Part shown: positions 12,892-58,265 of the stretch, piece after piece
How positions within the stretch are numbered: the first letter of the stretch is position 1
How the letters are laid out: each line of letters opens with the position of its first letter
NCBI GenBank assembly: GCA_019787685.1
Contig: JAHNUO010000004.1
Location: 62,001-126,000 of the forward strand
Direction: 5' to 3'
Source: Chiua virens
Taxonomy: Eukaryota; Basidiomycota; Agaricomycetes; Boletales; Boletaceae
DNA: 64,000 nt
Position numbers and translations under genes: made by a program
Notes under the pieces: model-generated
What the model saw: only the letters and a program-made list of their open reading frames with translations
The model's database searches: none
What the model was told of the DNA's origin: nothing

Positions 12892-13580
12892 TGTTACGGT
12901 AGTTCCGGGTAGGACCTAACGTAGCCGCAAAAGCGCCAAGTATCAAGTGGCTGCGATAACTCAAACAACCACCACTTGATACGTGGTGCGCTGAAGAGTC
13001 GAACAAGGGTTTCTGGTCAGCGGAGTGCTACCAGAGAGACGAGTGAGAACTCAGGTGGTTGCGAGAGCTGTCCGGTTGGGAATCTATACCCGAGGGACGG
13101 TCGAGGATCGAGGGTTGATTGCCCTAGTCGAGTGGTCAAGGGACGACGAAAGAAGTCCCTGGTCGAGTGGTCACAGGCGCTGTGGCGAGTGGAGCAGAGA
13201 TACTCAGCTAGTATTGCGGAGATCAAGACTAGGGTACAGGAGTATCGCTGCGGGGTATTTATACTACGAGAACTGCGCACGGACCAAGTAACTAAAAGGG
13301 GGTGGCCAGAAGAGCGGAAGGGCGAAGGGGCCAAAAGGAGTGCGCAGTAATCAAATGAGGAAATCGTACGATGCGAAGGCAACGGACGATGACGAAGATG
13401 AAATGACAAATGCGAAGCCATCGGGTGATGACGAGAAAAGAAGAACGTAAGCATCCGGGTAAAGCCGGTGCTGAGTTACAAAGCGAGAAAGGAGAACGTG
13501 TACGGATGAACGTACGAGGATACCTAGGTATCGAGTAAAGTGAAGATGTACAAGTGAAACAAAAGAAAGAAATCGTAACA
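12892..13580 (-). repeat. 3' LTR (689 bp)
   Basis: Left-hand LTR, downstream end of the element. It matches the right LTR throughout except for one substitution seen by eye (T at 13056, C at 20011) and the absence of a 40-bp internal duplication. Open frames such as 12976-13350 recur in both LTRs and are not genes. Confidence 0.95.
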
Positions 13581-13588
13581 TTACCCCC
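13581..13588 (-). promoter_or_regulatory. Polypurine tract
   Basis: On the coding strand GGGGGTAA directly abuts the TGTTAC start of the 3' LTR, the position where plus-strand DNA synthesis is primed. Confidence 0.6.
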
Positions 13589-13622
13589 GGAGTACGATCA
13601 AAGCACCAAGTGAAGATCATCT

Positions 13623-15020
13623 CTAGAAATTGAACGCATCACGGACAGGACTGCCTGTGATATTGGCGTACCCCTCGTCGTCGATGGGGTCATCACATGG
13701 GGAGACCGAGCGTCGGTCAGGAGACGCGGAACGTTGTCGTGCATGGCGGCGGGCTCGTTGAGGTGGGGGTATAGGGAGTACGGAGCGGCCATTGCGGCGT
13801 GACAAAGAAGACGAGTTCGTCGAAGAGGACGACGTGGAGGGGATAGCGGGGCGCGGCGAGCGTCTGGTCCAGGTGTTTCCGGCGGCCACGGGAGTAAGCC
13901 GGTTGGCAAGGGGGATGTGAGTGCGTACCCGAGGAGGTCGTCCAGGGCAGCGGGATTGGATATGTCCGGGGGCCCAGGTGAGACAGATGGGGCACTGGTA
14001 CATGGGGCATTCGACCTGAACGTGGCCGAGTTTCCTATATTCGAAGCAAGCCTCGTGGTATCGAGGGTGATCGTCGGGGAGGGATACCTGACCGGTCCGA
14101 AACATCAGTTCGGCTTCGGCACGGTTGCAGGCGAGCATCTCTTCCTCGGTAAAGGGGGTCGAGGATGCCGAGGGGGTAGACGAGGGGCGAGAGGGGGGAA
14201 CCATGTGACGGGCGAGATCTGCTTGGTAGCGGTGGAGATCTTCCAAAAATTCCCCCATCTGCATCTGGTGGAGGGTGTGTTCGATGTAGGCGCGGATGCG
14301 GTCGTGGATTTGTCCGGTAACCGCGGAAAGGAGGTGGGAATGGCGATCACGACCTAGCAGGTCGGACTGGACGAAGGTCAGGTGCTCGCACTGGAGATAG
14401 GCGAGATAGAGGGCGTTGAGCGGGGAGTTCAAGTCAAGGTGATGCTCGATGGGGAAGGCCATCGCGGGGTCTAGGATGAGTTCATGCATGCGACGAAAGT
14501 ACTCTGGGGAGGAGGGGGAGGAACGGATGGTATGAGAATGATAAGGCAGGTCTACTGCCTGGAGAGGAGAACGAACGCGACTAGGGCGCTCAGAAGGAAC
14601 AGGCCATTGAGGAGGAGCTCCCCATCCTGCGGAGGCAACTGCTGAAACAGCTGGAGAAGGGGGTCGGGTGGATCCGGTGAGGGAGGATTCGGTTGAGAGG
14701 GTAGAGACATTGGACGCGGGGGTGGCCGGCGGTGGGAGCGGCAGGTATGGGATAGACGCAGTTGGAGTGAAGACAGGTACGGGGTGGATGATTTCGTTTT
14801 CGAAGTCGGGGGTTGAGCAAGAACGGTAGGTCATTATCGCTTTGACGGAGACTGGGGGTGGTCGAAGTGGGGAGCGAGGTGGTCTTGGTGGAGGCGAAAG
14901 GGAGCTGATGGCAGGGAAGTCCTTGGGATGGGTCCGCTTATATGCGTCGACCGTTTCCTTGGCGTTTCCTAAGTTAGACTCTGGTTCCCATGAGTCATCG
15001 GCGGCGGAGTATCCTTTCCA
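13623..15020 (-). CDS. C-terminal extension of Pol with zinc-knuckle-like motifs
   Basis: In-frame continuation of pol beyond the chromodomain stop, about 465 residues; an internal ATG at 14,834 gives a 403-aa frame. After the chromodomain tail comes a Pro/Ser-rich linker, then a helical, His-rich middle (EHHLDLNSPLNALYLAYLQ). Two Cys/His clusters follow: CFEYRKLGHVQVEC, which has the spacing of a CCHC knuckle with Tyr in place of the second Cys, and CPICLTWAPGHIQSRC. The end is Arg/Ser-rich. It could be translated as a pol extension or a separate third frame. I do not recognise a named domain; nucleic-acid binding is an inference from the Cys/His spacing. Confidence 0.7.
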   Translation of the reverse strand, partial: WKGYSAADDSWEPESNLGNAKETVDAYKRTHPKDFPAISSLSPPPRPPRSPLRPPPVSVKAIMTYRSCSTPDFENEIIHPVPVFTPTASIPYLPLPPPATPASNVSTLSTESSLTGSTRPPSPAVSAVASAGWGAPPQWPVPSERPSRVRSPLQAVDLPYHSHTIRSSPSSPEYFRRMHELILDPAMAFPIEHHLDLNSPLNALYLAYLQCEHLTFVQSDLLGRDRHSHLLSAVTGQIHDRIRAYIEHTLHQMQMGEFLEDLHRYQADLARHMVPPSRPSSTPSASSTPFTEEEMLACNRAEAELMFRTGQVSLPDDHPRYHEACFEYRKLGHVQVECPMYQCPICLTWAPGHIQSRCPGRPPRVRTHIPLANRLTPVAAGNTWTRRSPRPAIPSTSSSSTNSSSLSRRNGRSVLPIPPPQRARRHARQRSASPDRRSVSPCDDPIDDEGYANITGSPVRDAFNF

Positions 15021-18000
15021 TCAGATCAGGAACTTGCGGTGGTGCGGGTTCCGTGTGTGGCGCAAAATCCGCTCGATTTCGTATTCCTCTTCTCCAGCGA
15101 TAAGGTCAGGTGGAGGTTTCGGGAAGTTCGGGCCGTAGGTTTCTGTTTCACGATAGGGCGATAACAGAGAAGCATGGAAGACCGGATGTATTTTCCAGGT
15201 CTTAGGGAGGCGGAGTCGGTAGGTGAGCGGCGAGAGGACTTCCGTGATGGAGAAAGGTCCTTCTCGGCGAGACGCGAGTTTCGGGGAAATGAGTTCCCGC
15301 TTTAGATTGCGGGCTTCCAGCCAAACTTGTTCTCCTTTGGTAAACGGTTTGAATTTACGGAAGGAGCGGGCCTTCATGGCTTGGCGGGCGAGTTCATGGG
15401 CAGCGAGGGCTTCGTCGCGGGCGGCGGAGAGGACGTCGAGTCGTTCCTTGACAGCGGGGAGATTGGTGTCGGCGATGATCGTGGGTAATGGACGGGGTTC
15501 GTATCCCATCATCAAGAAGAACGGCGACTTGCCAGTGACGGAGTGAGGGCGGTGATTGTGAGTGAATTCGGCCATGGGAAGTAGGTCGGCCCATTTCTCC
15601 GGATTGTTTTGGCAATACATGCGGAGATAGGTCTCAACCTCTTGGTTGACTCGTTCCGTTTCACCATCGGATTGGGGGTGATAGGCGGTCGACAAGGAGA
15701 GGCGGTATCCGATAAGCCGGGAGAGTTCTTTTGCAAAAGCAGAAGCAAACTGCGGGCCGCGGTCTGAGATGATCTTGTCGTAGAGGCCGAATCGGGTGTA
15801 GACTTTGTGGAAAAAGAGACAGGCTATGCCTGCGGAGTCGGCAGTTTTCACTGTGGGGCAAAGAATTACCCCCTTCGTAAGGCCGTGGTCGACCACGACC
15901 ATGAGAGAATCGTATCCCTCCGCCGAGGTGGGAAGATCCGTGATGAGATCCACCGACACGTTCTGGAAAGGGCGAGAGCAGGTGGAAGGAATTGGAGCCA
16001 GAGGAGGGGTGGTCGGGTGGGTGTTGACCTTGTGCTGCTGGCACGCGGCGCAACCAGAGACGTAGGAGCGGACAAAGGAGGCAAGGCCCGGCCACCAAAA
16101 TTCGGCGGCAACGAGCTGGCGAGTTTTTAAGTAGCCGGGATGTCCGGCGGAGTGGGAGTCATGGTGCCTGGCGACGATTTGTTGTCGGAGTTCAAGATTT
16201 GGAGGGACGTAGACGCGGCCCTGGTAGGTCAGGACGCCTGCGTCGTATTTCCAATCCGAGAGGCGGGCGCGGAAGGAAGACGGGAGACCACCGTCAAGGG
16301 CATTGAGGGTGTCCAAGACCAGTGGGTCGTCGGCGGAAGACTTGGCTATCAAGGATTGTAGGTCGAGGGTAACCAGATTAACGAAGACGTCGTCAGGGAG
16401 GAGGGTGACGTTTTCGTTATCCGAATCGGAGGTGACGTGGTCGGGGCGGCGGGAGAGCGCATCAGGGCCGTCGAGGAGTTTGCCGGGGACGTGGGAGAAG
16501 GTGAGGTCAAAGTCGGCGAGATCAAGGAGCCAACGAGCTTGTCGGCGGTTCAAGTTTTGGGGTTGACGGAAGTACGTCAAGTTCTTGTGGTCGGAGAAGA
16601 CCGTGACGGGGTGTGCGCTTCCTCGGAGGTGGTGGCGCCAGGCTTTGAGGGATCGGATTACCGCTAGGAGTTCGCGGTTGTAGATGTCATAGTTCCTCTC
16701 CGCAGCGTTGAACGACTGGGAGAGGTAAGAGCAGGGTTTCCAGTCACCGTTGGTATCGGTCTGGAGAAGAACACCGCCAGTGGCATATTTAGATGCGTCG
16801 GTGGCGATGGCGAAGGGTCGGGAGGAGTCGGGAAACCGGAGTACCGGATCCGTGGTGAAGGCCTTTTTAAGGCGTTCGAAGGCTGAGACCTGAGAGGGTC
16901 CCCAAGTCCAAGGTGCGTCTTTCTTGGTAAGATCGACGAGAGGGCGGGCGATGGTCGAGTAGTCGGGGATGAACCGACGGTAGAAGTTGGCGAAACCCAT
17001 GAACGATCGGACGTCCTTGAGCTTGGTGGGGGTTGGCCAGTCGGCAATACCGGCCACTTTGACGGGGTCCATGGCTAGTTCGCCTGGTCGGGCGATCATG
17101 CCAAGGTATTCTACTTCGGTGGTAGCGAAGTGGCATTTTTCGAGTTTTAGGTGAAGGTCGAGTTCCTTCATGCGGGCGAGAACGCGTTTGGTGCGCTCAG
17201 TGTGAGTGGTCTCGTCTTCTGAAAAGATGAGGAGATCGTCCATGTAGATGACGAGCCATCCTTCGGTGATCATATCGCGGAAAGAGTCGTTCATGAAACG
17301 TTGGAATGTCGCGGGAGAATTGGTCAGTCCGAAGAACATGACTGTGGGTTCGAAGAGGCCGCGGTGGGTGATGAAGGCGGCTTTCCATTGGTGTCCGTCC
17401 TTGATACGAACGTTGTTGTAACCCCATCGGACATCGAACTTGGTGAACAGCTTGGCGTCCTTTAGTTTATCGACGAGGTCGGAGATAAGAGGAAGGGGAT
17501 AGGCGTCGCGAACGGTGTGTTCGTTGACGTAGCGGTAGTCTTGGCAAGGACGGAGTTTGCCATCCTTCTTTTTGACGAAGAAGAAGGGGGAGGCCTAAGG
17601 GGAGTTCGAGGGACGGATCTTGCCGTTGGCGAGGTGTTTGTCGATGAAATCGTCGGTGGCTTTGCGCTCGTCTGGAGACAAGGGGTAAACCTTCCCGACC
17701 TTTGGTACGAAGGTGTCTTTCAGATGGATTTCGTGGTCACAAGACCTAGAGGGAGGCATCTGATTGAAGGGTTCCTTTGCGAATACGGATTCGAATTCCG
17801 AGTATTCCGAAGGAAGGGTGATCTTGGGTTTCTTTGCTGTGGCGGCGAGGGCGGTAGCATTGGTAAGCTTCTCGGGTTGAGTGGTCCGAACGAAGCGTTG
17901 TCCAGCGCGCATGATGCGGTTGACGGAGTGTTGCACGGATTGGGTCGTGAAACGATGCCCAGTTTCAGTGCCGAGGTAGTCGTAGAGTTTGCCGTCCCAG

Positions 18001-18541
18001 ATAGGGTCGACATCGAGGTGGCGAACGGGACGGACGGGAGGTGGGTGAGCGAGTCTGGCGGAGTGTTTGGGTTCGTCTGTGGTAATGGGGGGTAGGTCGG
18101 GTTCAGGGGCGGAAACGGTGATGGTTTTGGCAACCCAATCGATGATCGGATTGGTCGCTTTCAACCAAGGGAGACCGAGGATGACGTTTTCCGAACCACA
18201 GTGGATGACGTGGAATTTGATTCATTGGAGTACTCCGCCAAGAGTGATCCGGAGGGTGGTGGTGAATTTGATGTCACCGTTCTTGTTCTTGGTAGAATCT
18301 ACGTTCCTAACCAGGATGGGTTTCGGAAGGCGATCCTTTGGGAACTTGTGTTTCTGGACGAAGTTCCAGTCAATGCAATTGATCCCGGCCCCCGAGTCAA
18401 TGAGGGCGCGGGTGTCGACGTCTTGAGAAGTAGCCGTAACGTTCAATCTAACAGGGATTTGCATAGATTGGGACGAAAGCTCAGCTACAAGTACATGGGT
18501 ACGAGAATGGGAAGATACCGGCATCGAATCGGTCTTCCTCC

Positions 18542-19633
18542 TTAAAAACCCGTGACCGGAGTGGTCACCTTGTTGACGCTCATAGCGTCCTCGTCATCCT
18601 CCTCGACTTCTACTAGTGTGGGAATAGGTTCTGGTTTAGGGGCGGTCTTCCGTACTTTCTTGGAGGAGGAGGATGGTGGGTTCTTGTTTGAGAATGCCGT
18701 GCATGCGGACGTTTGATGCCCTGGTTTGCGACAGCGGAAACAGAGTTTTTGCTCGAAGCATCGCTTGCGCTCAGCCTCGGTCATCTTTGGAACATAGATG
18801 GCGTCTACGTCCATAGCGTCAGGGTCTCGCTCCTTCTTGCGAGGGGTTTGGTCGTGGTAAACGACGGCGGCGGTGGGTTTCTTGTTTCGGCGGGCGATCT
18901 CGTCGGCGCGTTCCCATTGGGTTTTGAAATGGATGGCTTGGGTATACCACTTATCGATCGTGGTAGGGACCATATCCATCCCTTGGATGCGCCTCATGAG
19001 AGAGGGCGGGAGCCCGGCCGCGAAGAAGTTGATAAGGATGGAGTCAGAGCCCGTGAGCCCTGCGGTGACGACCTTGTTGCGGGAGGAGATATACGAGGGG
19101 ACATCCTCGTTCTTGGTGGAGCGGGTGGTGGATAACCAGGCGATAGCGTCGCCTTTGGTGTCGTGGTGTTCGAAGTCCTTTCGGAACTCCGTCTGCCAGT
19201 CGGTCCAGGTTCCGAAGGATCTTGCGATGATGGACCTGGCGCGGAACGTGTCGGCCCAAGTCAGAGCAGACCCTTCGGTCATGAAGGAGAGGGCGAAAGC
19301 CACTCGTTTGTTTTCGGTGTTATACACATCTTCGTTAACGAAGAGGTAGGTGGCCACATCGTTGAGCCAGGGTATGGCGCGATCATAGGAGCCGTTGAAA
19401 GCGGCGGGTTTTCCGAGACGAAGTTCAACTGCCTTGTTAGACATGTTGGTCGAGGTAGTCGTGGTGGAGGTCCGTAAGGGTTGTCCTGACGGAGTGACGA
19501 GGATGGGGTTCCGGATAGATGATGGTCCGGGGTTTGGCCTTCGTGGGGTCGTTGGGGACACGAAGGTGGCAAGTGCTGGGAGGTCGAGTGTTTGGTGAAG
19601 ACGTTCAGCTAGTCGCTGGGTGTCGTCCTCCAA
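18542..19633 (-). CDS. gag: Retrotransposon Gag
   Basis: 363-aa structural protein of the LTR element. The middle resembles a Ty3-type capsid (PAAFNGSYDRAIPWLNDV, WADTFRAR, WTDWQTEFRKDF). A CCHC zinc knuckle CFRCRKPGHQTSAC lies at about residues 298-311 for RNA binding, followed by an acidic tail. The frame is intact from ATG to TAA. The stop is preceded immediately by a -1 slippery heptamer that joins it to pol. Confidence 0.93.
   Translation of the reverse strand: MEDDTQRLAERLHQTLDLPALATFVSPTTPRRPNPGPSSIRNPILVTPSGQPLRTSTTTTSTNMSNKAVELRLGKPAAFNGSYDRAIPWLNDVATYLFVNEDVYNTENKRVAFALSFMTEGSALTWADTFRARSIIARSFGTWTDWQTEFRKDFEHHDTKGDAIAWLSTTRSTKNEDVPSYISSRNKVVTAGLTGSDSILINFFAAGLPPSLMRRIQGMDMVPTTIDKWYTQAIHFKTQWERADEIARRNKKPTAAVVYHDQTPRKKERDPDAMDVDAIYVPKMTEAERKRCFEQKLCFRCRKPGHQTSACTAFSNKNPPSSSSKKVRKTAPKPEPIPTLVEVEEDDEDAMSVNKVTTPVTGF
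18545..18551 (-). promoter_or_regulatory. Predicted -1 ribosomal frameshift site (GGGTTTT)
   Basis: In gag frame the last codons read G GGT TTT TAA, a canonical X XXY YYZ heptamer directly before the stop. Slipping back one base opens the pol frame with no stop before the protease. Position and frame relation are seen directly; activity is inferred. Confidence 0.7.
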
Positions 19634-19846
19634 GTCAGAGTTTTCGACGTTGATGTCGAGGTCTACTTCCTGGGGTTCAGAAAGTGGGGTCGAGGGTTCA
19701 GGGTTTTCGTCAGATAGGTCCGACGTCGGGGTGTGAGATGCCTGGAGGTTCCAAGCAGGGTTCAGGGTTGGACGAGTGGGAGGTCGTCCGGCAATGGTGG
19801 GCAGCTGACTGCGCGAAGGCAGGCTGTATAGGTAGTCTTGATCTTA

Positions 19847-20575
19847 TGTTACGGTAGTTCCGGGTAGGACCTAACGTAGCCGCAAAAGCGCCAAGTATCA
19901 AGTGGCTGCGATAACTCAAACAACCACCACTTGATACGTGGTGCGCTGAAGAGTCGAACAAGGGTTTCTGGTCAGCGGAGTGCTACCAGAGAGACGAGTG
20001 AGAACTCAGGCGGTTGCGAGAGCTGTCCGGTTGGGAATCTATACCCGAGGGACGGTCGAGGATCGAGGGTTGATTGCCCTAGTCGAGTGGTCAAGGGACG
20101 ACGAAAGAAGTCCCTGGTCGAGTGGTCACAGGCGCTGTGGCGAGTGGAGCAGAGATACTCAGCTAGTATTGCGGAGATCAAGACTAGGGTACAGGAGTAT
20201 CGCTGCGGGGTATTTATACTACGAGAACTGCGCACGGACCAAGTAACTAAAAGGGGGTGGCCAGAAGAGCGGAAGGGCGAAGGGGCCAAAAGGAGTGCGC
20301 AGTAATCAAATGAGGAAATCGTACGATGCGAAGGCAACGGACGATGACGAAGATGAAATGACAAATGCGAAGCCATCGGGTGATGACGAGAAAAGAATGA
20401 GTAAGTGCGATGCCATCGGATGATGACGAGAAAAGAAGAACGTAAGCATCCGGGTAAAGCCGGTGCTGAGTTACAAAGCGAGAAAGGAGAACGTGTACGG
20501 ATGAACGTACGAGGATACCTAGGTATCGAGTAAAGTGAAGATGTACAAGTGAAACAAAAGAAAGAAATCGTAACA
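19847..20575 (-). repeat. 5' LTR (729 bp)
   Basis: Right-hand LTR and presumed promoter of the element. It is 40 bp longer than its partner because a segment around 20,398-20,437 ending in GATGACGAGAAAAG is duplicated in tandem. The adjoining internal sequence (minus strand TAAGATCAAGACTACC) does not start with TGG, so I cannot name a tRNA primer site. Confidence 0.95.
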
Positions 20576-20985: not shown

Positions 20986-21268
20986 TTTCATTTAGGTTGT
21001 TCCATCATTCTGGTGTTGTGTAGCAGCAATGAAGGATATCTTTGTTGTCAAAAGTGTGTACTTCAGGAAATAGAAATTGGCAGAAACAGAGAAGATATAA
21101 AAGTCAAGTGCATGGAAAACAGTGAGATGAGGTGATTCAACAAGGATTGTGTAAGCAGGACTCTACAGCAAACACAAATAAGCAAAACAAAAGGAAGGTC
21201 ACATGGTAAAAGAAATCCTAACACATACACATTCTAGACCTTGTAGCATTATGAAAATGGTTCATTTT

Positions 21269-23950
21269 CTAATGTTTTTTGCTATAATTTTTTGGAAACA
21301 TGATTGGAATGGTGATCAAGAAGACTGATAACTTACAGATCAGAGTCTGAGATATGATATGCATGATACACTGCTTCATTTTCTTCTGATCATTAAAGTC
21401 ATATTCAGGACTGAGCTCAGAGATTGCTTTCTTGACAGCATTGATTGTGCCAGATGATTTGTAAAGTTTGTCAGCCATTTTGACTGGATCCTTAACACCT
21501 TGTTGGTGTAGAAAGAAGGAATGTTCTAAAACAATAGCAAAACCTATAGATACCAATCATTGAGTGTAATCACTGAAGTTATTAAAAGCTGACCAATGCC
21601 TGAATGAAGTACTTTGGCCAATGGAATGCTTTGCATTGAAAACTGGATATATCATACAATGTAAGGTATGAATAACAATGCAATCAATGTACTTACAATA
21701 GATGAGGATGATGTTGAGTGTGGTGTTATAGCTGAGAAATCTACAAGCTGATATAATTTGAACAAAATGACAGGACAATTGAAAGAAAACATACTCTTGG
21801 AGATGCCAATATCTATAAATTTGACATCATCATTTTTATGGTGAAATATACAAATATCACAAACCTCCTATTAAAGAAAAAGATCAATAAGATCAAAATA
21901 AAAAATTGATTCATACCTCCTAAATGATTAAAATGGACAGAAAAGAAAATGTTAAAAATTTTCAGGTCCTTAAGGATGAATATGAAAGCTCACATCCTAA
22001 AAAGTGCAGAAATATCAGTATCCATAGGAATTAAAGTTGATCACATACAAGCTATAAATGAGAGGACAAGGGCAAGACAGAGGGGCATGGATCAGCATCC
22101 TTCTCAAAGCCCCTTCACAGTCAGAGCACTTACAAACTATGAATGGCAGGACAAGAGCAAGACAGAGGGGCATGGATCAGCATCCTCCTCAAAGCCACTT
22201 CACAATCAGAGCACTCACTCCCTATGAATGACAGGACAAGGGCAAGACAAAGGGGCACAGATCAGCATCCTTCTCAAACCCCCTTCACAATTAGAGCACT
22301 TACTCCCTATGAATGACAGGGCAAGGGCAAGACAGAGGGGCATGGATCAACATTCTTCTCAAACTCCTTTCACAATCAGAGCACTTACTTCCTATGAATG
22401 AGAGGACAAGGACAAGACAGAGGGGCATGGATCAGCATCCTGCTCAAACCCCCTTCACAATCAGAGTACTTACATACTATGAATGACAGGACAAGGGCAA
22501 GACAGAGGAGAATGGATCAACATCCTTCTCAAACCCCCTTCACAATCAGAGCACTTACAAACTATAAATAACAAGAGCAAGACAGAGGGGCATGGATCAG
22601 CATCCTTCTCAAAGCCCCTTCACAATCAGAGCACTTACATTCTATGAATGAGAGGACAAGGGCAACACAGAGGGGCATGGATCAGCACCCTTTTCAAACC
22701 CCCTTCACAATCAGAGCACTTACATTCTATGAATGAGGGGACAAGGGCAACACAGAGAGGCATGGATCAGCATCCTTCTCAAACCCCCTTCACAATCAGC
22801 ACTTACAAACTATGAATGACAGGACAAGGGAAAGACAGAGGGGCATGGATCAGCACCCTTCTCAAATCCCCTTCACAATCAGAGCACTTACATCCTATGA
22901 ATGACAGGACAAGAACAACACAGAGGGGCATGGATCAGCATTCTTCTCAAAGCCACTTCACAATTAGAGCACTTACAAACTATGAATGACAGGACAAGGA
23001 CAAGACAGAGGGGTATAGATCAGCATCCTTCTCAAAGCCCCTTCACAATCAGCACTTACAAACTATGAATGACAGGACAAGGGCAAGACAGAGGGGCATG
23101 GATCAGCATCCTTCTCAAACTCCCTTCACAATCAGCACTTACAACCTATGAATAAGAGGACAAGAACAACACAGAGGGGCATGGATCAGCACCCTTCTCA
23201 AATCCCCTTCACAATCAGAGCACTTACAACCTATGAATGAGAGGACAAGGGCAACACAGAGGGGCATGGATCAGCATCCTTCTCAAAACCTCTTCACAAT
23301 TAGAGCACTTACTTCCTATAAATGAGAGGACAAGGGCAAGACAGAGGGGCATGAATCAGCATATTTCTCAAAGCCCCTTGACAATCAAAGCACTTACTTC
23401 CTATGAATGGCAGGACAAGGGCAACACAGAGGGGCATAGATCAGCATCCTTCTCAAACCCACTTCACAATCAGAGCACTTACACTCTATGAATGAGAGGA
23501 CAAGGGCAACACAGAGGGAATAGATCAGTATCCTTCTCAAAACCCCATTCACAATCAAATGGCTTACTCTCTGTAAATCAGAAGCCATGATTTAGATCTT
23601 GTTACCATGACTATGGATTTATACCATATACAAGCTTGCTTACCTCAATATGTGGAAACCATGATGCAATTGCTACCCTCATGGACTGCTGTTGAGCACT
23701 AGTAAGTGGCTTATTCACCCTGTGTTTATGGTCTATGAGAGGTATCAGAATCCTATAAGATATTTAATAGGTATACTCAAAGATTTTACACTTCAACCAA
23801 TTACCTTTCCATGGCAGACTCAATGCAGAGCATAATATTTGTGTGTTGTGTAGTCACAAGGAGCATTTGTAACACTCCTTCATCTAAGGCCTTCACAGTC
23901 CTTTCAATGAGAAGTTTACACCCCTCATCAGACTTGTCCAAGTCTTTATG
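21269..23950 (-). CDS. Unidentified split gene enclosing the intron-like array
   Basis: Minus-strand exon-like blocks flank the array. Upstream exon 23732-23644 reads HKHRVNKPLTSAQQQ, then RVAIASWFPHIE, and ends in phase 0 at a GTAAGC donor. A preceding block near 23.8 kb reads LCSALSLPWK. Downstream, EVCDICIFHHKNDDVKFIDI starts at about 21,867, then FNAKHSIGQS near 21.63 kb and FAIVLEHSFFLHQQGVKD, KMADKLYKSSG, ISELSPEYDFND at 21.55-21.35 kb, each beside plausible splice sites. I do not recognise the protein family. There is no CpG in the whole gene, and at least one upstream frame contains a stop, so it may be a relic. Exon boundaries are tentative. Confidence 0.4.
22049..23570 (-). repeat. 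Tandem array of 18 intron-like units with 3-nt variable junctions
   Basis: Eighteen units, period about 79-85 bp. On the minus strand each begins GTAAGTGCTCTGATTG (one GTGAG variant), has a CTGAT branch-point-like site about 40 nt in, a CT-rich tract, and ends CATTCATAG. AG and the next GT are always separated by exactly three bases. In minus-strand order these are AGA, AGT, GAA, GAA, GTT, GTT, TTT, TTT, GAT, TTT, AAT, AAT, TTT, TAT, GAA, GGA, GGA, TTT, CTT. Five neighbouring pairs are identical. Outside the triplet, unit differences are mostly transitions and small indels. The array carries no CpG. It may be a chain of introns with 3-nt exons or a minisatellite inside one long intron. Confidence 0.9.
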
Positions 23951-24076
23951 CATGATATCAGTTTAAATATCATGTAAAAAGAAACTTATGAACACATACC
24001 CTTTAACTCCACCTTTGCTGTTGGTTTATACCTCATACTCTCCACCCTTCCCCATACAGGATTATTCTTTACACCC

Positions 24077-25522: not shown

Positions 25523-28500
25523 ATGGCGCAGATTCCTACTTTGGTCCAACAAATGTCCGACGTATCGCTGGAGCCTGCGCCAGACAACAATGTAAGTCTT
25601 TAAAGTTAAATTGGATTCGTATCGTGACGTTACCTTTCACAGAGAGGGGAAGTGACTCGAGAGATGTTGTCGAATGACTTGCTGGAGCCTGCACCGGATA
25701 AGAGTGTAAGTATTCAAAGTTAAATCGGATTCGCATCATGACATTACCTTTCACAGAGAGGGGAAGTGGCTCGAGAGATGTTGTCGAATGACTTGCTGGA
25801 GCCTGCACCGGATAAGAGTGTAAGTATTCAAAGTTAAATCGGATTCGAATCGTGACGTTACCTTGCACAGATAGGGGAAGCGGCTCGAGGGATGCTGTCG
25901 AATGACTCGCTGGAGCCTGCACCAGATAGGAGCGTAAGTCTTCAAGCTAAATCGAATTCCGATCAATGTGACATCACCTTTCACAGATAGAGGAAGTGGT
26001 TCAAGGGATCTTCAAAATGACTCTTGAAGACGATACTTCGTGGAACCGGTATGCGGGACAGTCGCTAGCACCTCCAAGGCCTTCTCCACAGTCAGAGACC
26101 CAATTAGAAGTGTCCCTCGAAGAAACCGACGAGGTTTTTGCGCAACTCCTCACGGTTGACCATGAGATGCACCGCCGTGCACAATATATACACAGCAAGG
26201 TGGAGGGATTGAGCGCGGCGGGTACACAAAGCCAGATCTTAGAAGCCACGGAGGAACAACTGAAGTGGTTCCAAGAGAACCTCGATGTCGTTACTCACTT
26301 AGCCAGAGGGGATGAGAGCGACGAACTACTGCGTGCAGAGTTAGAAGGGAATATGAAAGAGCTCCTGGCAGCCGTGAGCAGTATCGCAAAAGCTCTTGCA
26401 GCCAGGACGCCTGAGGATATGTCACCCAAAGAAAGTGCTTCCGAAGTCGTAGATACTGGTAAGTTTCTGCGATGATGTCATTTAAGGAACTAACATGTTC
26501 CACAGAACCGAAATTTCACCTTAGCTTCCGTCATGCCAATCCACTCGTCTTGCTGACCATGCTGATCGCGGTTATCTTGAACATTTTCGGACACCTCACT
26601 CGTCCTTGGAGTAACACTTCCTTGGGACTCCTAAACCTTCTGCTGAAGACCGCCCTCCACTCTCCTACCCAGCCTCATGCCGCGTTAAACACGCTAGAAC
26701 CCGTCGCAGGAGACTACGTTCCACACGATATTCGATCAGTGCGCAAGAAATTCGACTTGGAACCCTCCACTCAGACATACGCTACATGTGTCAAGTGTTG
26801 CTCCACATATGCGCCGATCACGAAGAAGAAGACGAGTACGTATCCCGAACGGTGCAACTTCGTGAAGTACCGTGGCGGTAAACTGTGCGGACAGCTCCTA
26901 GTCAAGACGACGAAGTCGGGCGGCGTCAAAGTCTCTGCGCCGCTAAGACCATTTGTCGTACAAGATTACAACGATTTTCTGGCTGGCCTACTGAGCCGCC
27001 CGGGAATAGAGGCCGCGATGGAGCGTGGAACTAGGCTAAACAACAAGCATCAGCTGTGGGACATAAAGGACGGGACAGGGATTACCGAAATCACGGGTCC
27101 TGATGGTAAACCATTCATGGATGGGCTGCAAAGGAGTGACCTCAGGTTAGCCTGGAGTCTCTCAGTCGACTGGTTTAATCCTCACGGAAATAAGACTGCG
27201 GGTAGAAAGAAATCAGTCGGGTCCATCGCGCTGGCTTTGCTCAACCTACCCCCCAGTCTTCGTTACAAAGCGGAAAATCTTTACGTCGTCGGCGTCATCC
27301 CTGGTCCCAAAGAACCCTCGCTGGAGGAAATGAACCACTTCCTTCGCCCCCTCATCGACTTCTTTTTGCCCGCATGGCAAAGAGGGACATGGTTCACACG
27401 GACTGTTGAGCACCCAGAGGGGCGATTATCACGATCTGTCATCGCGCTGGCTATCAACGACTTACCCGCTGCTCGGAAGGTTGGCAGCTTCGCAGGGGCC
27501 AACGCTGAACACCTCTGTAACCTTTGCTGGTTGAAGAAATCGGAAAAAGGCAACTTTGAATGCGAGACGTGGAAACGCCGGACTTGTGAAGAATATCGGG
27601 AAGCTGCAATTAGATGGCGAGATGCCGACTCGAAAAAAGAACGTGATAAAATCTTCAAGACGACCGGGGTACGATGGTCCGAACTTCTTAGGCTGCCATA
27701 CTGGGATCCTACGCGTTTCCTCGTGGTCGATGGCATGCATAATCTCTTCCTCGGCTTGGTCCAATATCACTTCAGAGACCTCATCGTCATCGACAAGCTT
27801 GCGAACCAAGAGCTCCGCAGGTCCCATCAGACACCAAAGAGACCGATTGATAAACACGAACTGCAACAGGCTAGACGGCTTGTTGGATCGGGAGCGTCAT
27901 CCACGGCACTCGGTCGCATTCGCTTACCAGTCTTGTTAAAGCTAGCGGAGGAACAAGGAAGGTTATCCGAATTGCCAACTTCGAAGGCAAAACCAACGAA
28001 AAAAGATCTGGTCGAAGTGCTACTGGTGAGCATCACATTCATAGAGGCGTTTGAACAAACCTGACATCTTGGCTCAAGTTGGGGCCGGCTTCACCACCAG
28101 ACGTTGTCCCAATGATGGTCGATAAATCAGAGGTCGGGCCAATAACTGATGTGCTCCTCAGAGACGAATTCATTGACGACTGTATCCCAAGCGGAAATGT
28201 AAGGAAGCCCGCATCCAACGAGCCGCTCACGAACCGCGAGATCGATGAAATTCAAACTCACCTCCACACAATCATGCGACCAACATGGCATCGTGGTGCC
28301 CCGAAAAACCTCGGTGATCCTGAACATGGAAAGCTCAAGGCGGAGCAATGGAGAACCTCGATTGAGTTTGACTTGCCCGTAATCCTTCTAAAACTATGGG
28401 CTAATGGTCCATATCCCGACGGCGAGAATGAGAAACGCGCGCGAAGGGAAAAGTTGGCGCACAGTACAATGCTGCTGGCAATGGCAATCGGATGGGCCAC

Positions 28501-43302: not shown

Positions 43303-45973
43303 ATGTCCATTCACATCGAAGAACCAGAGTCACCGCCTTCAGCCACCTTCTCAATGCAAGCCATGGAGAAGATAGCCCGTACGGTAAGCATACTATATAC
43401 ACTTTCAGGAGGTTAATTCAACTCCTCCGCAGGCAGAGGAATATACGAGACGCTTTAGCCAGCGCCTTGGGCGCACGCCCTTAGTCCCAGACCATCGAAC
43501 TGGTGTTCAGGCGCATGTGATGGCTTCTTCCGACGCTATCCATCCTGTCTATGCACCTTATACCCGGTTTAAACCTCGCGCACGTACCCCTGCTTCGTCC
43601 ACCGTCGAAGATGAAACACCACCAGGTGGGGCCTCCCACAGCAGTCATACCCCTGACCAGTCTCCCCGTTGGCGATCACCTTCCCCGAACCGATCACCTT
43701 CTCCGAACCGATCACCTTCTCCGAACACCCTCACTTCTCGTCACAGTGCAACTCTCGGCTCCGGGATTGCACGTTCACAGACCAGCCCCATCCCAATGGA
43801 CGAAATGTCATACCCACTACACCATTCAATTCCAGAATGTCCTCAGACAGGTTCAAACCTGACCCCAGGAAGTCAGATGCCATCGGTAGGTTCACTCTTC
43901 TGCCATGTTTTGTATCCCTGATGTCCTGCAGCAAATTATTGTTCCATTCCAAACGAGCACTGGCAGTGATCGTATGGATCAAGACCCTCCGCCGGATATA
44001 GGCCTTACGCCACAAAGCCAGATGCAATCGGTAGATATCTTGTATTGCGATGTTTCATTTCTCTGATGTCCTACAACAGGCTATTGTTCCATCCCAAACG
44101 AACAGTGATTACATGGATCAAGACCCCCCTCCGCCGGATACAAACCTTGCTCCCAAATCGGTATTCATCTTGTGCTATAATGTCTCCCTTCTCTGACGTT
44201 CCGTACCAGGCAATTGTTACTTCCCAAACGAGCGGTGATTACATGGATCAAGACCTCCCTCCACCGGATATACACTTTACTCCCAAAAGTCAGACACGAT
44301 CGGTAATTACCTTGTGCTGCAATGTCTCCTTTCTCTGATGTTCTGTACCAGGCAATTGTTCCTTCCCAAACGAGCGGTGATCGCATGGATCAAGACCCCC
44401 CTCCACCAGATATAACCCTACAAAATCAAACGCGATTGGTAATTATCTTGTGCTGCTATGTTTCTTGTCTCTGATTTCCTGTGCTAGGGAATTGTTCCAT
44501 CCCAAATGAGTAGTGGTCATAGGGATCAAGTCCCCCCGCTGTCTGCGCCTACGCCTACCTCTCATCTTTCAGGTGACCGTCTGCCTGTCAGACCTTCAAT
44601 GTTTTCCACAAGACTTCAAACTGCTATAGACCAGGCAGTAGCCGAGCGCCTAGAGGCAGCAACTGCAGGGATCGTTGAACCCACAGTTCGCGGAATTATC
44701 GATGCCTGTGTCCCCCGACTGACCGAACTTATGGAGTCTCACTTCGTGACATTGACGCCCTCACGGCCTATCCCGCAGTGCAAGGGACATCGGTGTGATT
44801 CTGGGACTTCTGAGGGAGACCGTGACAGCGACGATGATCGCGGTGCTGAAGACGCCGCAGTACGAAAGCGGAAGAAGCCTGGACCACGGGGGAAAACGAA
44901 CCGTCTGCATGTAAGCCGATATTTCCAGTAAGCCGCGCAACCTTTCTGATTTATGTAGATGGCTTTCCGTGTGTACCTTCGGCAAAAGGCAATCATTCCA
45001 TCCGGCCCCAAAGGCCAGCTCCCTGTTTCAGCCCCAGCGGACGTTGTGCGCGCATTTAATCAAGATGGCGTCCCACCCCCATTACTGGAAAACATCGTAT
45101 TAGATTGGCGCTGCAGCCCATTGACCTCGTCACGGTGGAACTGTGAAGCTATCTCTATCCTGTCAATCGACTTTTATAACAACCTCAAAAGTGGTGTATA
45201 TCAAGACGTTGTCTTCGATGAGCAAACCATGAGCCTCCAGGCTATTCGAAAATTGTGCGAACAAAAACTAGTTCGAACGCATCAAGCTCACCGAACGCAG
45301 GCTAGAATCAACGTCGCCGCCACTGCCGATGAGCGAGACCAGGTGGTGGCCCATATAGTTGCAAAGGAGGACAAACGTAGGAAGGACGACAGAATGATTG
45401 CCCGTCGCCATGGGGTACGTCATATTATTGATTGCCTTTCATTTTTGCTCATCATTGTTTTTGAAGACTATCGCGAGGCGCAAAAAAATTGCATCGCAGA
45501 ATCGCTCTCGAGATCCTGAGAAGTGGGATGCCATTCACAAGGTCATCGACCGCCTTGGCGTCGAGGGTATGAGCGGCGACGAGACTGACTGTGTTGTCAC
45601 TTCGAAGCCAAAGGTCCTGCGGCGTCTCGAGCTTCCTTGGATAAACCCTTCCATTTCTCATTTATTCCGGTCTGTGGAGACTTACGAACCAGCTCTTAGA
45701 ATGGAAAATATGCTGGAACGAGTTGGTAATTCATCGTTGAAGCGTCATTGGGAAGCAGGGAGGAAAGAAGTAAAGTCGGCCGCTATCCCGGGCCTTCCGC
45801 GTAACTGGTACAATGATAGCTGGTTCCAAGGGCTGACTACCGGGGCCCGCTCAATGCTCTCTGTCGGAAAGGACATCACTATTCCCAATCTGGTGAGTCT
45901 AATACACATAGCGTTTATACCTTTAGTCACGCAGTATGCAGGAACCCTTCTAGGTGTAATAGTCACCTGCTAG
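43303..45973 (+). CDS. Lineage-specific protein with repeated central exons
   Basis: Start MSIHIEEPESPPS (exon 43303-43383, phase-0 intron), then AEEYTRRFSQRLGRTPLVP, a Ser/Pro-rich stretch with three tandem SPSPNR motifs, and five to six related exons beginning AIVPSQTNS. A helical segment follows (FSTRLQTAIDQAVAERLE), then a basic nuclear-type segment (RKRKKPGPRGKTNR). The C-terminal half (exons near 44.96-45.90 kb) includes AFRVYLRQKA, IDRLGVEGMSGDETD and LPRNWYNDSWFQGL, a conserved pattern in a family abundant in Agaricomycetes and often found near transposases. No enzymatic motif recognised. The last exon may end at the GTGAGT at 45,894 or be extended by a small terminal exon. Confidence 0.65.
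43877..44490 (+). repeat. Tandem exon-intron modules in the 43.3-kb gene
   Basis: Period about 125-140 bp. Each exon starts with a GCAATTGTTCCATCCC-like sequence and contains MDQDPPPPD; each intron is about 48 nt (GTAATTA...TGTACCAG). All junctions are phase 0, so copies add about 27-31 residues in frame. Confidence 0.88.
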
Positions 45974-49507: not shown

Positions 49508-50826
49508 ATGATGGCTAAACTGTTCGAGTCTCTGGGTGAACTTCAAGAAGGTGAGTGAGTCATATCTTGATCACCACGAGCCAGTCAGTGGGTGCAACAT
49601 GTGCTTTCGGGCATTTTTTCATTTCCACTTCCATTGGATGTGGTCATTTTCCATACACGAGGCGTGCGATAAGCAACACCGTGACCATAGATATAGCACC
49701 TCGAGGAGGGTGATTCCACTCACTGGCACACCCAGAAGTCTTCTTGCCGCCTCCTTCTGAACCCCCACAACCCCGACTCCCACCCCCTCGCTATTCATTA
49801 AAATGACCTCCATTAGTGAACAGGTGAGCACAACGGTGACCTCTTAGGATCGTTCAATGAGTCGCCACTTGACGAATACTCCAAGTACTACTGCGAGTTT
49901 GAACCCGATCCTGTAGAATATGCGGAGGATGAGTACGACCCCACAGAACATGCTGAAGACGGGTGCGATCCTATAGAATCTGCGGAGGAGGACGAGATCG
50001 ACCCTTCAGAATATGCGGAGGACGGAGGGGATCCTGTTGAACCCACGGAGCCCGGATTTCACCATCCATGCGACGACGTTGGCGCCCCCGCCCAACTGGA
50101 AAATTCTAGAGGATCGGACGCCACTGGCACGAAACGGACAAAGGTCAGTCCTATTACTATTTATACGAGTTTCATTCTGAACAACGGACACATCCTAGAA
50201 AAATAAAAAAGGCCCGAAATTGCCGATTCAGGCTTTTTTCGCTAGCTATGCTCCTCTGTTTCAATACAATCCCACCGCGTCCTCGTCATTGGAGTTTTAC
50301 CGTCTCTGTGACCAGTTTGGTTGGCACAGAAGACATCCAGAAAGGCAAAGTGTCCGCCAGAAGTTCGACGACGCTCTCGTGCTACAGTTCAACAAGATCT
50401 ATGGAACGAAGATCCAAAGTTACAAAAGTTGGAAAAAATTGTGTCGCGTCACGCGCATAAAGCCCTTTCCAGGGAACATACAAGCCTGTCGTGAGGTAAG
50501 TAAATTGTCGTTATTCCCAATTTCTCTTCCTGACGACTCGCGCTCAACGACTGGAAACCTTGGGTCATGACCAGGCGATGCAGGGGAAATTTGTGAACCT
50601 CGTTGACCTCGTCGATGCGAACAACAGCCCCATGAAAGTTGGCTTGTTCGAGACCGAGCGTCAGCTCAGTGAATACACGCTCTCAACAGGAAAGTTCTTC
50701 CCTGGGGAGAATGCGCAAGCAGGAAAGTTGTTACGACTTCTACACCTCCGGCGGCAAATCGTCCACCCTCGGAATGACGGTCCCTCTTATTCCCACCCTC
50801 GCAAGGGCACAAAGGGACGCCGCTAA
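49508..50826 (+). CDS. Tandem paralogue 1, lineage-specific nuclear-type protein
   Basis: First exon MMAKLFESLGELQE, then small exons including MTSISEQ, an acidic exon with imperfect DPxEYAED hexapeptide-style repeats (about 49,865-50,150), then the conserved domain: PIQAFFASYAPLFQYNPTAS, FYRLCDQFGWHRRHPERQS, ALVLQFNKIYGTK, WKKLCRV. After a phase-0 intron come KFVNLVDLVDANNSPMKVGL and YTLSTGKFFPGENAQAGKLL. The FYRLC..FGW, QFN..YGT, VNLVDLVD and TGKFFP pattern belongs to a large Agaricomycete family of unknown function. Exact small exons near the 5' end are uncertain. Confidence 0.7.
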
Positions 50827-53210: not shown

Positions 53211-54541
53211 ATGATGGCTAAACTGTTCGAGTCACTGGGCGAACTTCAAGAAGGTGAGTGAGTCATATCTTCAAGGATCACCATCATGATGAACCAGTCA
53301 CCAGGCCGAATGGGCGCAACATGTGCTTTTGGGCATTTTTTCATTTCCACACAGCACCACTTCCATTGGATGTGGTCATTTTCTATACACGAGGCGTGGG
53401 GTAAGCAACGCCGTGACCATAGATATAGCACCTCGAGGAAGGTAATCCCACTCACTGGCACACCCAGAAGTCTTCTTGCCGTCTCCTTCTGAACCCCCAC
53501 AACCCCGACTCCCACCCCCTCGCTATTCATTAAGATGACCTCCACTAGTGAACAGGTGAGCACAACGGTGACCTCTTAGGATCGTTCAATGAGTCGCCAC
53601 TTGACGAATACTCCAAGTACTACTGCGAGTTTGAACCCAATCCTGCAGAATATGCGGAGGATGAGTACGACCCCACAGAAGATGCTGAGGACGGGTGCGA
53701 TCCTGTAGAATATGCGGAGGAGGACGAGATCGATCCTTCAGAATATGCGGAGGACGGAGGGGATCCTGTTGAACCCGCGGAGCCCGCATTTCACCATCTA
53801 TGCGACGACGTTGGTGCCCAACTGGAAAATTCTGGAGGACCAGACGCCACGAAAGGAAGAAAGGTCAGCCATTACTATTTATACGAGTTTCATTCTGAAC
53901 AACGGACACATCCTAGAAAAATAAAAAAGGCCCGAAATTGCCGATTCAGGTTTTTTTCGCTAGCTATGCTCCTCTGTTTCAATATGATCCTGCTGCGTCC
54001 TCGTCATTGGAGTTTTACCGTCTTTGCGACCAGTTCGGTTGGCACAGGAAACATCCGGAAAGGCAAAGTGTCCGCCAGAGGTTTGAAGACGCTCTCGTGT
54101 TACAATTCAACGCGATCTATGGGAAGAAGACCAAAAGTCTCGAAAACTGGAAAAAATTATGTCGCGTCATGCATATAGAGCCTGTTCCAGAAAATATGAA
54201 AGCCTGTCGTAAGGTAAGTTGTCGTTATTCCCAATTTCTCTTTCTGATGACTCGTGCTCAACGACTGGAAAACCTTGGGTCGTGACCAGGCAGTGCGCGC
54301 GAAATTTGTGAACCTCGTTGACCTCGTCGATGCGAACAACAGCCCCATGAAAGTTGGCTTATTCGAGACTGAGCGTCAGCTCGGTGCATACACGCTCTCA
54401 ACAGGAAAGTTCTTCCCTGGGGAGAACGCCCACGCAGGAAAGTTGTTACGACACCTACACCTCCGGCGGCACATCGTCCACCCTCGGGGTAACGGTCCCC
54501 CTAATTCCCGCCCTCGCAAGGACACAAAGGGACGCCGCTAA
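53211..54541 (+). CDS. Tandem paralogue 2
   Basis: Same architecture as paralogue 1: MMAKLFESLGELQE start, acidic DPxEYAED-repeat exon (about 53,590-53,860), FYRLCDQFGWHRKHPERQS, ALVLQFNAIYGKK, then VNLVDLVDANNSPMKVGLFE and TGKFFPGENAHAGKLL. Differences from copy 1 are scattered substitutions and small in-frame indels in the acidic repeat. In place of PIQAFF the translation has PIQVFF. Confidence 0.7.
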
Positions 54542-56966: not shown

Positions 56967-58265
56967 ATGATGGCTAAACTGTTCGAGTCACTGGGCGAAC
57001 TTCAAGAAGGTGAGTGAGTCATATCTTCAAGGATCACCATCATGATGAACCAGTCACCAGGTCAAATGGGCGCAACATGTGCTTTCGGGCATTTTTTCAT
57101 TTCCACACAGCACCACTTCCATTGGATGTGGTCATTTTCTATACACGAGGCGTGGGGTAAGCAACGCCGTGACCATAGATATAGCACCTCGAGGAGGGTG
57201 ATCCCACTCACTGGCACACCCAGAAGTCTTCTTGCCGCCTCCTTCTGAACCCCCACAACCCCGACTCCCACCCCCTCGTTATTCATTAAAATGACCTCCA
57301 CTAGTGAACAGGTGAGCACAACGGTGACCTCTTAGGATCGTTCAATGAGTCGCCACTTGACGAATACTCCAAGTACTACTGCGAGTTTGAACCCAATCCT
57401 GCAGAATATGCGGAGGATGAGTACGACCCCACAGAAGATGCTGAGGACGGGTGCGATCCTATAGAATATGCGGAGGACGGAGGGGATCCTGTTGAACCCG
57501 CGGAGCCCGGATTTCACCATCCATGCGACGACGTTGGTGCCCAACTGGAAAATTCTGGAGGACCGGACGCCATGAAAGGAAAAAAGGTCAGCCATTACTA
57601 TTTATGCGAGTTTCATTCTGAACAACGGACACACATCCTAGAATAATAAAGAAGGCTCGAAATTGCCGATTCAGGCTTTTTTCGCTAGCTACGCTCCTCT
57701 GTTTCAATACAATCCCACCGCGTCCTCGTCATTGGAGTTTTACCGTCTCTGCGACCAGTTTGGTTGGCACAGAAAACATCCGGAAAGGCAAAGTGTCCGC
57801 CAGAGGTTCGACGACGCTCTCGTGTTACAATTCAACACGATCTATGGGACGAAGACCAAAAATCTCAAAAGCTGGAAAAAATTATGTCGCGTCATGCATA
57901 TAGAGCCTGTTCCAGGAAATATGAGAGCCTGTCGTAAGGTAAGTTGTCGTTATTCCCAATTTCTCTTCCTGATGACTCGTGCTCAACGACTGGAAACCTT
58001 GGGTCATTACCAGGCAGTGCGCGCGAAATTTGTGAACCTCGTTGACCTCGTCGATGCGAACAACAGCCCCATGAAAGTTGGCTTGTTCGAGACCGAGCGT
58101 CAGCTCGGTGCATACACGCTCTCAACAGGAAAGTTCTTCCCTGGGGAGAACGCCCACGCGGGAAAGTTGTTACAACACCTACACCTCCGGCGGCAAATCG
58201 TCCACCCTCGGGGTAACGGTCCCCCTAATTCCCGCCCTCGCAAGGACACAAAGGGACGCCGCTAA
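56967..58265 (+). CDS. Tandem paralogue 3
   Basis: Third copy, with a shorter acidic exon (one repeat fewer, about 57,345-57,560), FYRLCDQFGWHRKHPERQS, ALVLQFNTIYGTK, VNLVDLVDANNSPMKVGLFE and TGKFFPGENAHAGKLL, ending RKDTKGRR. The downstream sequence diverges from the other units after about 58,560. Confidence 0.7.

Follow-up and report, generated by a model that had tools for sequence, protein, structure and literature searches.

The DNA analysed here (the window) is a stretch of 64,000 nt from Chiua virens, a forest mushroom of the family Boletaceae. On its minus strand, from 23,570 down to 22,049, lie 19 triplets with 18 homologous intron-like bodies between them, a predicted array of 19 single-codon exons and 18 near-identical introns of 77-82 nt (82 nt in 14 bodies, 80 nt in three and 77 nt in one). 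The bodies mostly begin with a GTAAGT-like donor and contain a CTGA branch-like site and an ATAG acceptor. Independently, Tandem Repeats Finder places the array at 22,042-23,557, with a period of 85 and 18 copies. An earlier note on this DNA had described tandem intron-like units with 3-nt junctions, invariant AG and GT around each junction and junction triplets whose differences include transversions, and the present analysis bears this out. The triplet measures 3 nt and is preceded by AG and followed by GT at 19 of 19 junctions; it takes ten forms (AGA, AGT, GAA, GTT, TTT, GAT, AAT, TAT, GGA and CTT), which in order read R S E E V V F F D F N N F Y E G G F L; and the transition/transversion ratio is 0.35 in the triplets versus 1.51 in the bodies (0.39 versus 2.36 over all 19 arrays described below). 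The additional claim that variation is concentrated at the triplet is clearly borne out when the 15 arrays that contain 12 or more units of 82 nt are averaged (1.61, 1.27 and 1.02 bits for the three triplet columns versus a mean of 0.22 and a maximum of 0.60 bits for the body), with the qualification that in the window array taken alone (14 units of 85 nt), where the triplet columns reach 1.49, 1.56 and 0.99 bits, one body column is equally variable (1.69 bits).

The arrays belong to a single multicopy GTPase gene family, in which they follow a phase-0 exon ending ...SWFPHVE and precede conserved downstream exons; the protein order is the GTPase part (a G domain with a helical part), the variable peptide and a conserved tail with LEHSFFLHQQ. 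In the window, where all exons are on the minus strand, exon e6 (LDKSDEGCKLLIERTVKALDEGVLQMLLVTTQHTNIMLCIESAMER; 23,805-23,943) is followed by exon e7 (ILIPLIDHKHRVNKPLTSAQQQSMRVAIASWFPHIE; 23,644-23,752), which is 89% identical to the corresponding exon of locus L035 and ends in phase 0 at 23,644. Downstream of the array there are two further predicted single-codon exons, GAT (Asp) at 21,994-21,996, which is GAT in 17 of 17 loci examined, and GAG at 21,917-21,919, the counterpart of which is CAG, CAT or GAG in 16 of 17 loci and was not found in L046. The tail consists of t1 (EVCDICIFHHKNDDVKFIDIGIS...; 21,795-21,867), which starts in phase 0, t2 (44 nt; 21,697-21,740), t3 (21,594-21,642), t4 (21,337-21,543), which encodes the C-terminal domain (...LEHSFFLHQQ...) conserved in relatives, and t5 with the stop codon (21,262-21,281). 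Read by hand, t1-t5 form a single open frame, and their borders carry AG and GT; the phase-0 exon end at 23,644 and the exon start at 21,867 are as the earlier note had them.

In silico splicing of the conserved exons yields frames that are open from start to stop in L033, L034 (480 residues) and L036, and tail exons t1-t5 that are open to a stop in L032-L037, L040 and L046 in addition to the window. The predicted L035 protein is open as well; it has lost, in frame, five P-loop residues in exon e1 (on contig C8), so that this copy may not bind GTP. The P-loop GRANAGKTT is intact in eight of the nine full-length predicted Chiua proteins, L035 being the exception. The arrays of L032 and L038 contain a TGA and that of L044 a TAA, L037 has lost one base in e7, and the automatic tail reading is broken in the window, L031, L038, L039 and L041-L045 (by hand, which covered the window and L031, the window tail is open and one extra base was found in t4 of L031). 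The GTPase part is predicted to be a P-loop GTPase of the Pfam family MMR_HSR1 by both score and P-loop: a composite Chiua query scores 25.2 bits, above the gathering score of 21.9, as do three of four related proteins from other sources (P0027, 25.2; P0084, 24.7; P0106, 22.1; the fourth, P0011, scores 21.8).

A rearrangement, probably an inversion of about 50 kb, has split the window copy of the gene. At 24,071-24,072, inside exon e5, the homology to the allelic gene L031 on contig C34 stops; the missing 5' part is found in inverted orientation beyond the window, at C4:134,900-136,436, where it is 94% identical to L031 and ends at the same L031 place within three bases. Given this split, the window allele may no longer make the full protein.

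The window differs from C34 also by some 7.7 kb (12,893-20,575) that are absent from the allelic contig and that, given this absence and the Gag/Pol-like frames seen by eye at 17.4-20 kb, look like a polymorphic LTR retrotransposon insertion. An open frame of 533 codons at 26,463-28,064 resembles, by eye, fungal transposon proteins. Other repeats in the window include a 114-nt unit (25,567-25,999; 3.8 copies according to Tandem Repeats Finder), which on the plus strand has by eye the look of an exon plus an intron (donor GTAAGT, acceptor CACAG), an exon-intron repeat on a larger scale; a 142-nt unit (44,027-44,537; 3.8 copies), which by eye may also comprise an exon and an intron; and related 30-63-nt repeats at three places (49,906-50,050, 53,640-53,773 and 57,396-57,490).

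Arrays across the Chiua genome

A search of the Chiua virens genome (48.3 Mb in 136 contigs) with the 85-nt unit produced 1114 matches, and among about the best 150 of these, all lie in arrays, head to tail, in the one gene family. Thirty places in the genome carry the exon that immediately precedes the array, and 20 of them (the window, L031-L046, L047, L048 and L049) were examined. Arrays with a total of 523 triplets are present in 19 of these loci; at L049 (C10:1132300-1135800), two triplets are followed by unrelated sequence. The arrays range from 7 to at least 44 codons, with 44 in L038; those of L047 and L048 comprise at least 39 and at least 38 triplets, respectively, and run past the sequence examined.

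The predicted exon is 3 nt long at 523 of 523 junctions in the 19 arrays. The junction search patterns required 3 nt, and therefore the 12 double-length gaps that the strict pattern left in the first 17 arrays serve as the control: all 12 contain an intact triplet beside a variant splice site (for example, GTCAGT, GCAAGT or an AAAG acceptor). The bodies, in contrast, vary in size, with 93 of 429 in the first 17 arrays differing from 82 nt (range 58-89) and 13 of 38 steps in L047 differing from 86 nt. By itself, constant exon length is weak evidence, the chance being about 0.035 for 93 indels scattered randomly over 85 nt. Of the 446 donors in the first 17 arrays, 444 begin with GT and the remaining two with GC, and body columns 1, 2, 5, 40, 42, 81 and 82, which belong to the donor, to the acceptor and, with two bases, to the CTGA (columns 39-42, some 40 nt upstream of the acceptor), are all within the 13 least variable of the 82 columns (336 units). 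With splice signals read from the sequence, the predicted array exons fall within the size definition of microexons, that is, no more than 15 nt between canonical splice signals.

The bodies evolve in concert by locus. Of 337 units, 281 have their nearest body within their own locus, compared to 32 expected, and no identical body is common to different loci. Some of the loci are present as two haplotypes. In particular, one 1.2-kb stretch each of C26, C34 and C59 matches C8, C4 and C11 at 96, 100 and 100% identity, respectively, and the matching stretches keep the order of the array loci. Accordingly, C26, C34 and C59 are taken as alternative haplotypes, and paralogy instead of allelism is rejected for the near-identical arrays; two other flank queries matched several paralogous loci.

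Coding properties of the triplets and the proteins of relatives

The most common of the 523 triplets are TAT (100), GGA (87), GAA (68), TTT (45), CAA (38), CTT (36), CGA (27), GAT (24) and AGA (17), and there are 21 rarer forms across the 19 arrays. Stop triplets are avoided: there are three among the 523, compared to 64.4 expected from the base composition by position, and T is the first base in three of 248 NAA, NGA and NAG triplets versus 153 of 275 others (the units share ancestry, so the p-value of this avoidance is not literal and only large effects are to be read). When the triplets are joined, stops number 3/523 in frame 0, 1/504 in frame 1 and 56/504 in frame 2; that frame 1 is as open as frame 0 counts against the coding reading. 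A or T occupies the third position of 513 of the 523 triplets, possibly because splicing constrains the base that ends the exon; of 1530 pairs that encode the same residue within an array, only 34 differ at this position. Certain residues are rare or missing: TCN (Ser) and Met codons are absent from the 523 triplets, Ile codons occur twice, and Ser, Ile, Met and Cys together account for eight.

A variable peptide of similar composition is found at this place in related proteins. The relatives, known here from proteins alone, are fifteen proteins from JGI or Logan contigs and P0121. Six of them (P0011, P0121, P0027, P0039, P0084 and P0106), chosen because they reach the tail, run uninterrupted from the GTPase part, past WFP[HN] and a variable stretch, to the conserved tail; their contigs measure 1094-1703 nt, and P0121 is without a start. 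The same region in Chiua contains six introns among e1-e7 and four among t1-t5, in addition to the array. Since these introns are missing, the contigs look like spliced RNA, and we infer that they are transcripts, an intronless retrocopy being conceivable. The tail is not reached in P0014, P0016, P0017, P0020, P0029, P0035, P0047, P0060, P0083 and P0086, of which P0016 and P0029 end in VR directly after WFPHFW, which looks like retention of the next intron. A search with the C-terminal part of P0011 retrieved only itself and P0121, and one with a seven-protein alignment retrieved no further short-contig protein reaching the tail among 120 listed of 907 matches. In the six variable stretches, which we selected and delimited ourselves and which comprise 146 residues, Ser, Ile, Met and Cys together occur once, compared to 454 of 2436 residues in the rest of these proteins (p = 7e-12). 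The amino acid ranks of the Chiua codons correlate with those of the variable stretches (rho = 0.66, p = 0.0015) and not with those of the sequence outside these stretches (rho = 0.19, p = 0.42).

It is mainly because the triplet alphabet matches this translated peptide of the relatives that splicing of the Chiua array is inferred, and the relatives strongly suggest that the array codons are spliced and translated. The earlier note had offered three options, namely a gene with single-codon exons that form a variable peptide, an introner-like burst with 3-bp duplications, and a decoy array removed as one long intron. The first is strongly supported by the family-wide pattern and stop avoidance, and further by the in-frame conserved exons on both sides of the array and by the homologous proteins on spliced-looking contigs. 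Under the third option, the triplets would never be present in mRNA, and the splice signals would be decoys or a tolerated tandem repeat. Skipping the array is indeed phase-neutral, with the flanking exons joining in frame, and three Chiua gene models in the NCBI database (P0001, P0002 and P0003) end before the array. Removal as a single intron nevertheless appears distinctly improbable to us, as it leaves unexplained stop avoidance and the exact 3-nt spacing over 523 junctions, the diverse triplets between identical bodies, and the presence of a same-alphabet variable peptide at this place in relatives.

We therefore consider it very likely that single-codon exons encode a hypervariable peptide in the multicopy GTPase family, which is much the best account of the array. 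Each codon of the variable segment would be its own 3-nt exon, and the near-identical introns between these exons, each around 82 nt long and with normal splice signals, would be removed one by one. The mature protein would then contain a peptide of 7 to at least 44 residues with no trace of the repeat, and gain or loss of a unit would add or remove exactly one codon, so that the frame could not shift.

Divergence of codons and introns

Codons and bodies are decoupled within arrays. For example, 39 units with one identical 82-nt body carry seven different codons, and diversity is 0.0027 in the bodies versus 0.62 in the triplets of L034 and 0.017 versus 0.59 in L048; the ratio of triplet to body diversity is 77 in L035, 44 in L037, 4.8 in the window and 3.6, the lowest value, in L041. 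Of 328 comparisons between a unit and its nearest body in the array, 76 show the same preceding triplet, with 62 expected, and 90 the same following codon, with 64 expected. These counts bear on an ordinary minisatellite without a coding role, in which triplet variation would be drift at the unit boundary. The clear concerted evolution by locus and the copy number differences between alleles are what a minisatellite would display, but duplication of a unit would copy the codon together with the body, and the near-chance sharing of the preceding triplet, the uniform A/T third bases and the avoidance of stops speak against this account, to the extent that we regard it as extremely unlikely. Homogenised introns around kept codons suggest either that gene conversion is confined to the introns or that the codons are strongly selected. 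Block duplication of codon runs was rejected, given that L036 alone has more repeated 4-codon words than its shuffled versions (7 versus 1.78, p = 0.003; p > 0.17 in the other 18 arrays).

Four allelic pairs allow the triplets and bodies to be compared directly. In the pair of the window and L031, which differ by a three-unit indel, 0 of 54 triplet bases have changed, with a body rate of 0.14% (p = 1). In L032/L033 and L041/L043, four of 72 triplet bases have changed in each pair, with body rates of 2.8% (p = 0.15) and 5.6% (p = 1), respectively; in both pairs this amounts to two of 24 codons, one of them changed at all three bases. The fourth pair, L034/L035, has flanks that are 98-99% identical and nearly identical introns, and yet 19 versus 35 codons in a different order; with 16 unit indels, 16 of 54 aligned triplet bases have changed versus three of 1476 body bases (p = 5e-22), although the near-identity of the bodies allows other alignments of the units. 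The earlier note had named allelic variation spread evenly over the unit as the observation contrary to its reading; this applies in part, since three of the four pairs show no significant excess of change at the triplet, while L034/L035 concentrates change at the codon.

The codon is not a general mutation hotspot, since three of the four pairs lack a significant excess of triplet changes. Codons can be stable words, and whole arrays are sometimes rewritten. A targeted mutator that acts on nothing but the triplet, like that of a diversity-generating retroelement, could account for the excess in L034/L035, but given the other three pairs and the ambiguous alignment of this one, we find such a mutator highly improbable, and triplet hypermutation as a general mechanism is ruled out by those three pairs.

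The burst with 3-bp duplications proposed in the earlier note is not supported as a general account. The five adjacent identical triplet pairs that the note had counted in the window are indeed present and exceed the expectation of 1.69 (p = 0.011); among the 17 arrays tested, however, excess at p < 0.05 is otherwise seen only in L031 (p = 0.024), the allele of the window, followed by L032 (p = 0.089), and the remaining 14 arrays have no excess at p < 0.1. Insertion with 3-bp duplications is thus not general, adjacent identity being in excess in two of 17 arrays. An introner-type origin, in which a mobile intron was inserted between the codons of a prior exon with a 3-bp duplication each time, would explain near-identical introns at every codon boundary as well as the excess in these two arrays. 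Nevertheless, as the other 15 arrays show none at p < 0.05 and all matches among about the best 150 of 1114 are located in arrays, we hold this origin to be unlikely; as an account of origin, it could be true together with the single-codon-exon reading. Overall, of the three options in the earlier note, the single-codon exons are strongly supported, the duplication burst is unsupported in general, and the decoy intron is disfavoured.

Implications and comparison with known systems

If the predicted splicing is real, this gene family has an unfamiliar design, a protein segment with one exon per codon, up to 44 consecutive in the counted arrays, and would put to the test the smallest exon that the spliceosome can handle and the order of intron removal. 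The part of the DNA open to recombination (the intron) would be distinct from the part that is translated (the codon), which would be a neat route to a hypervariable peptide. Recombination between identical introns may reshuffle the codons, and the variable peptide might be a recognition surface under diversifying selection. More tentatively, the units could be codon cassettes, each a codon with a removable intron that serves as a recombination handle, which would let the fungus rewrite a recognition peptide codon by codon, without frameshifts or protein repeats; with about a thousand cassettes and dozens of GTPase loci, the system would perhaps be involved in self/non-self or immune recognition between nuclei or strains, a possibility that we consider speculative. 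Annotation misses the arrays, and given that the three database models stop before the array, similar systems may be overlooked in other boletes.

Among open-access articles in PMC, preprints excluded, nothing of the kind was found for tandem single-codon exons or for this GTPase family. In comparison with IRG-type and dynamin-like GTPases, the rmsd is about 8 A and the identity 7-9%, and numerous single-domain GTPases reach almost the same scores through their G domain, so that the Chiua family is at most a putative member of this group. A PDB sequence search with the family protein returned short G-domain matches only, and the whole-length matches in Foldseek are weak (TM about 0.3).

Introners, or introner-like elements, are many near-identical introns in one genome. 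The Chiua units differ in that, among about the best 150 of 1114 matches, they are confined to one gene family, head to tail, and have no consistent target-site duplication (the two of 17 arrays concerned being mutual alleles). The micro-exon genes of schistosomes and the bicycle genes of aphids contain many tiny symmetrical exons that code for variable proteins; these exons are several to tens of bases long and are not known to be set between copies of one intron, whereas in Chiua each predicted exon is a single codon flanked by copies of the repeated intron.

Microexons of plants and animals are 3-15 nt long, and 1-nt exons have been described in plant APC11 and VPS55, with a conserved GTRAGT donor in the case of VPS55 (PMC8831610, PMC13149111). 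The predicted array exons of Chiua are similarly very short and lie between canonical introns; however, microexons as described in these sources are short exons conserved across species, whereas the Chiua arrays have 7 to at least 44 predicted exons in succession, with near-identical introns and a variable codon. The WD40 repeats of Podospora het-d and het-e evolve in concert, with 'high internal conservation' (PMC1805685), and the tandem units of Chiua are likewise homogenised within a gene family in which a few codons vary. In het-d and het-e, the unit that is homogenised codes for protein and forms a propeller, whereas the Chiua unit is an intron-like GT...AG sequence, of which, in the gene model, not the whole repeat but only 3 nt per unit, that is, one codon, is predicted to be translated.
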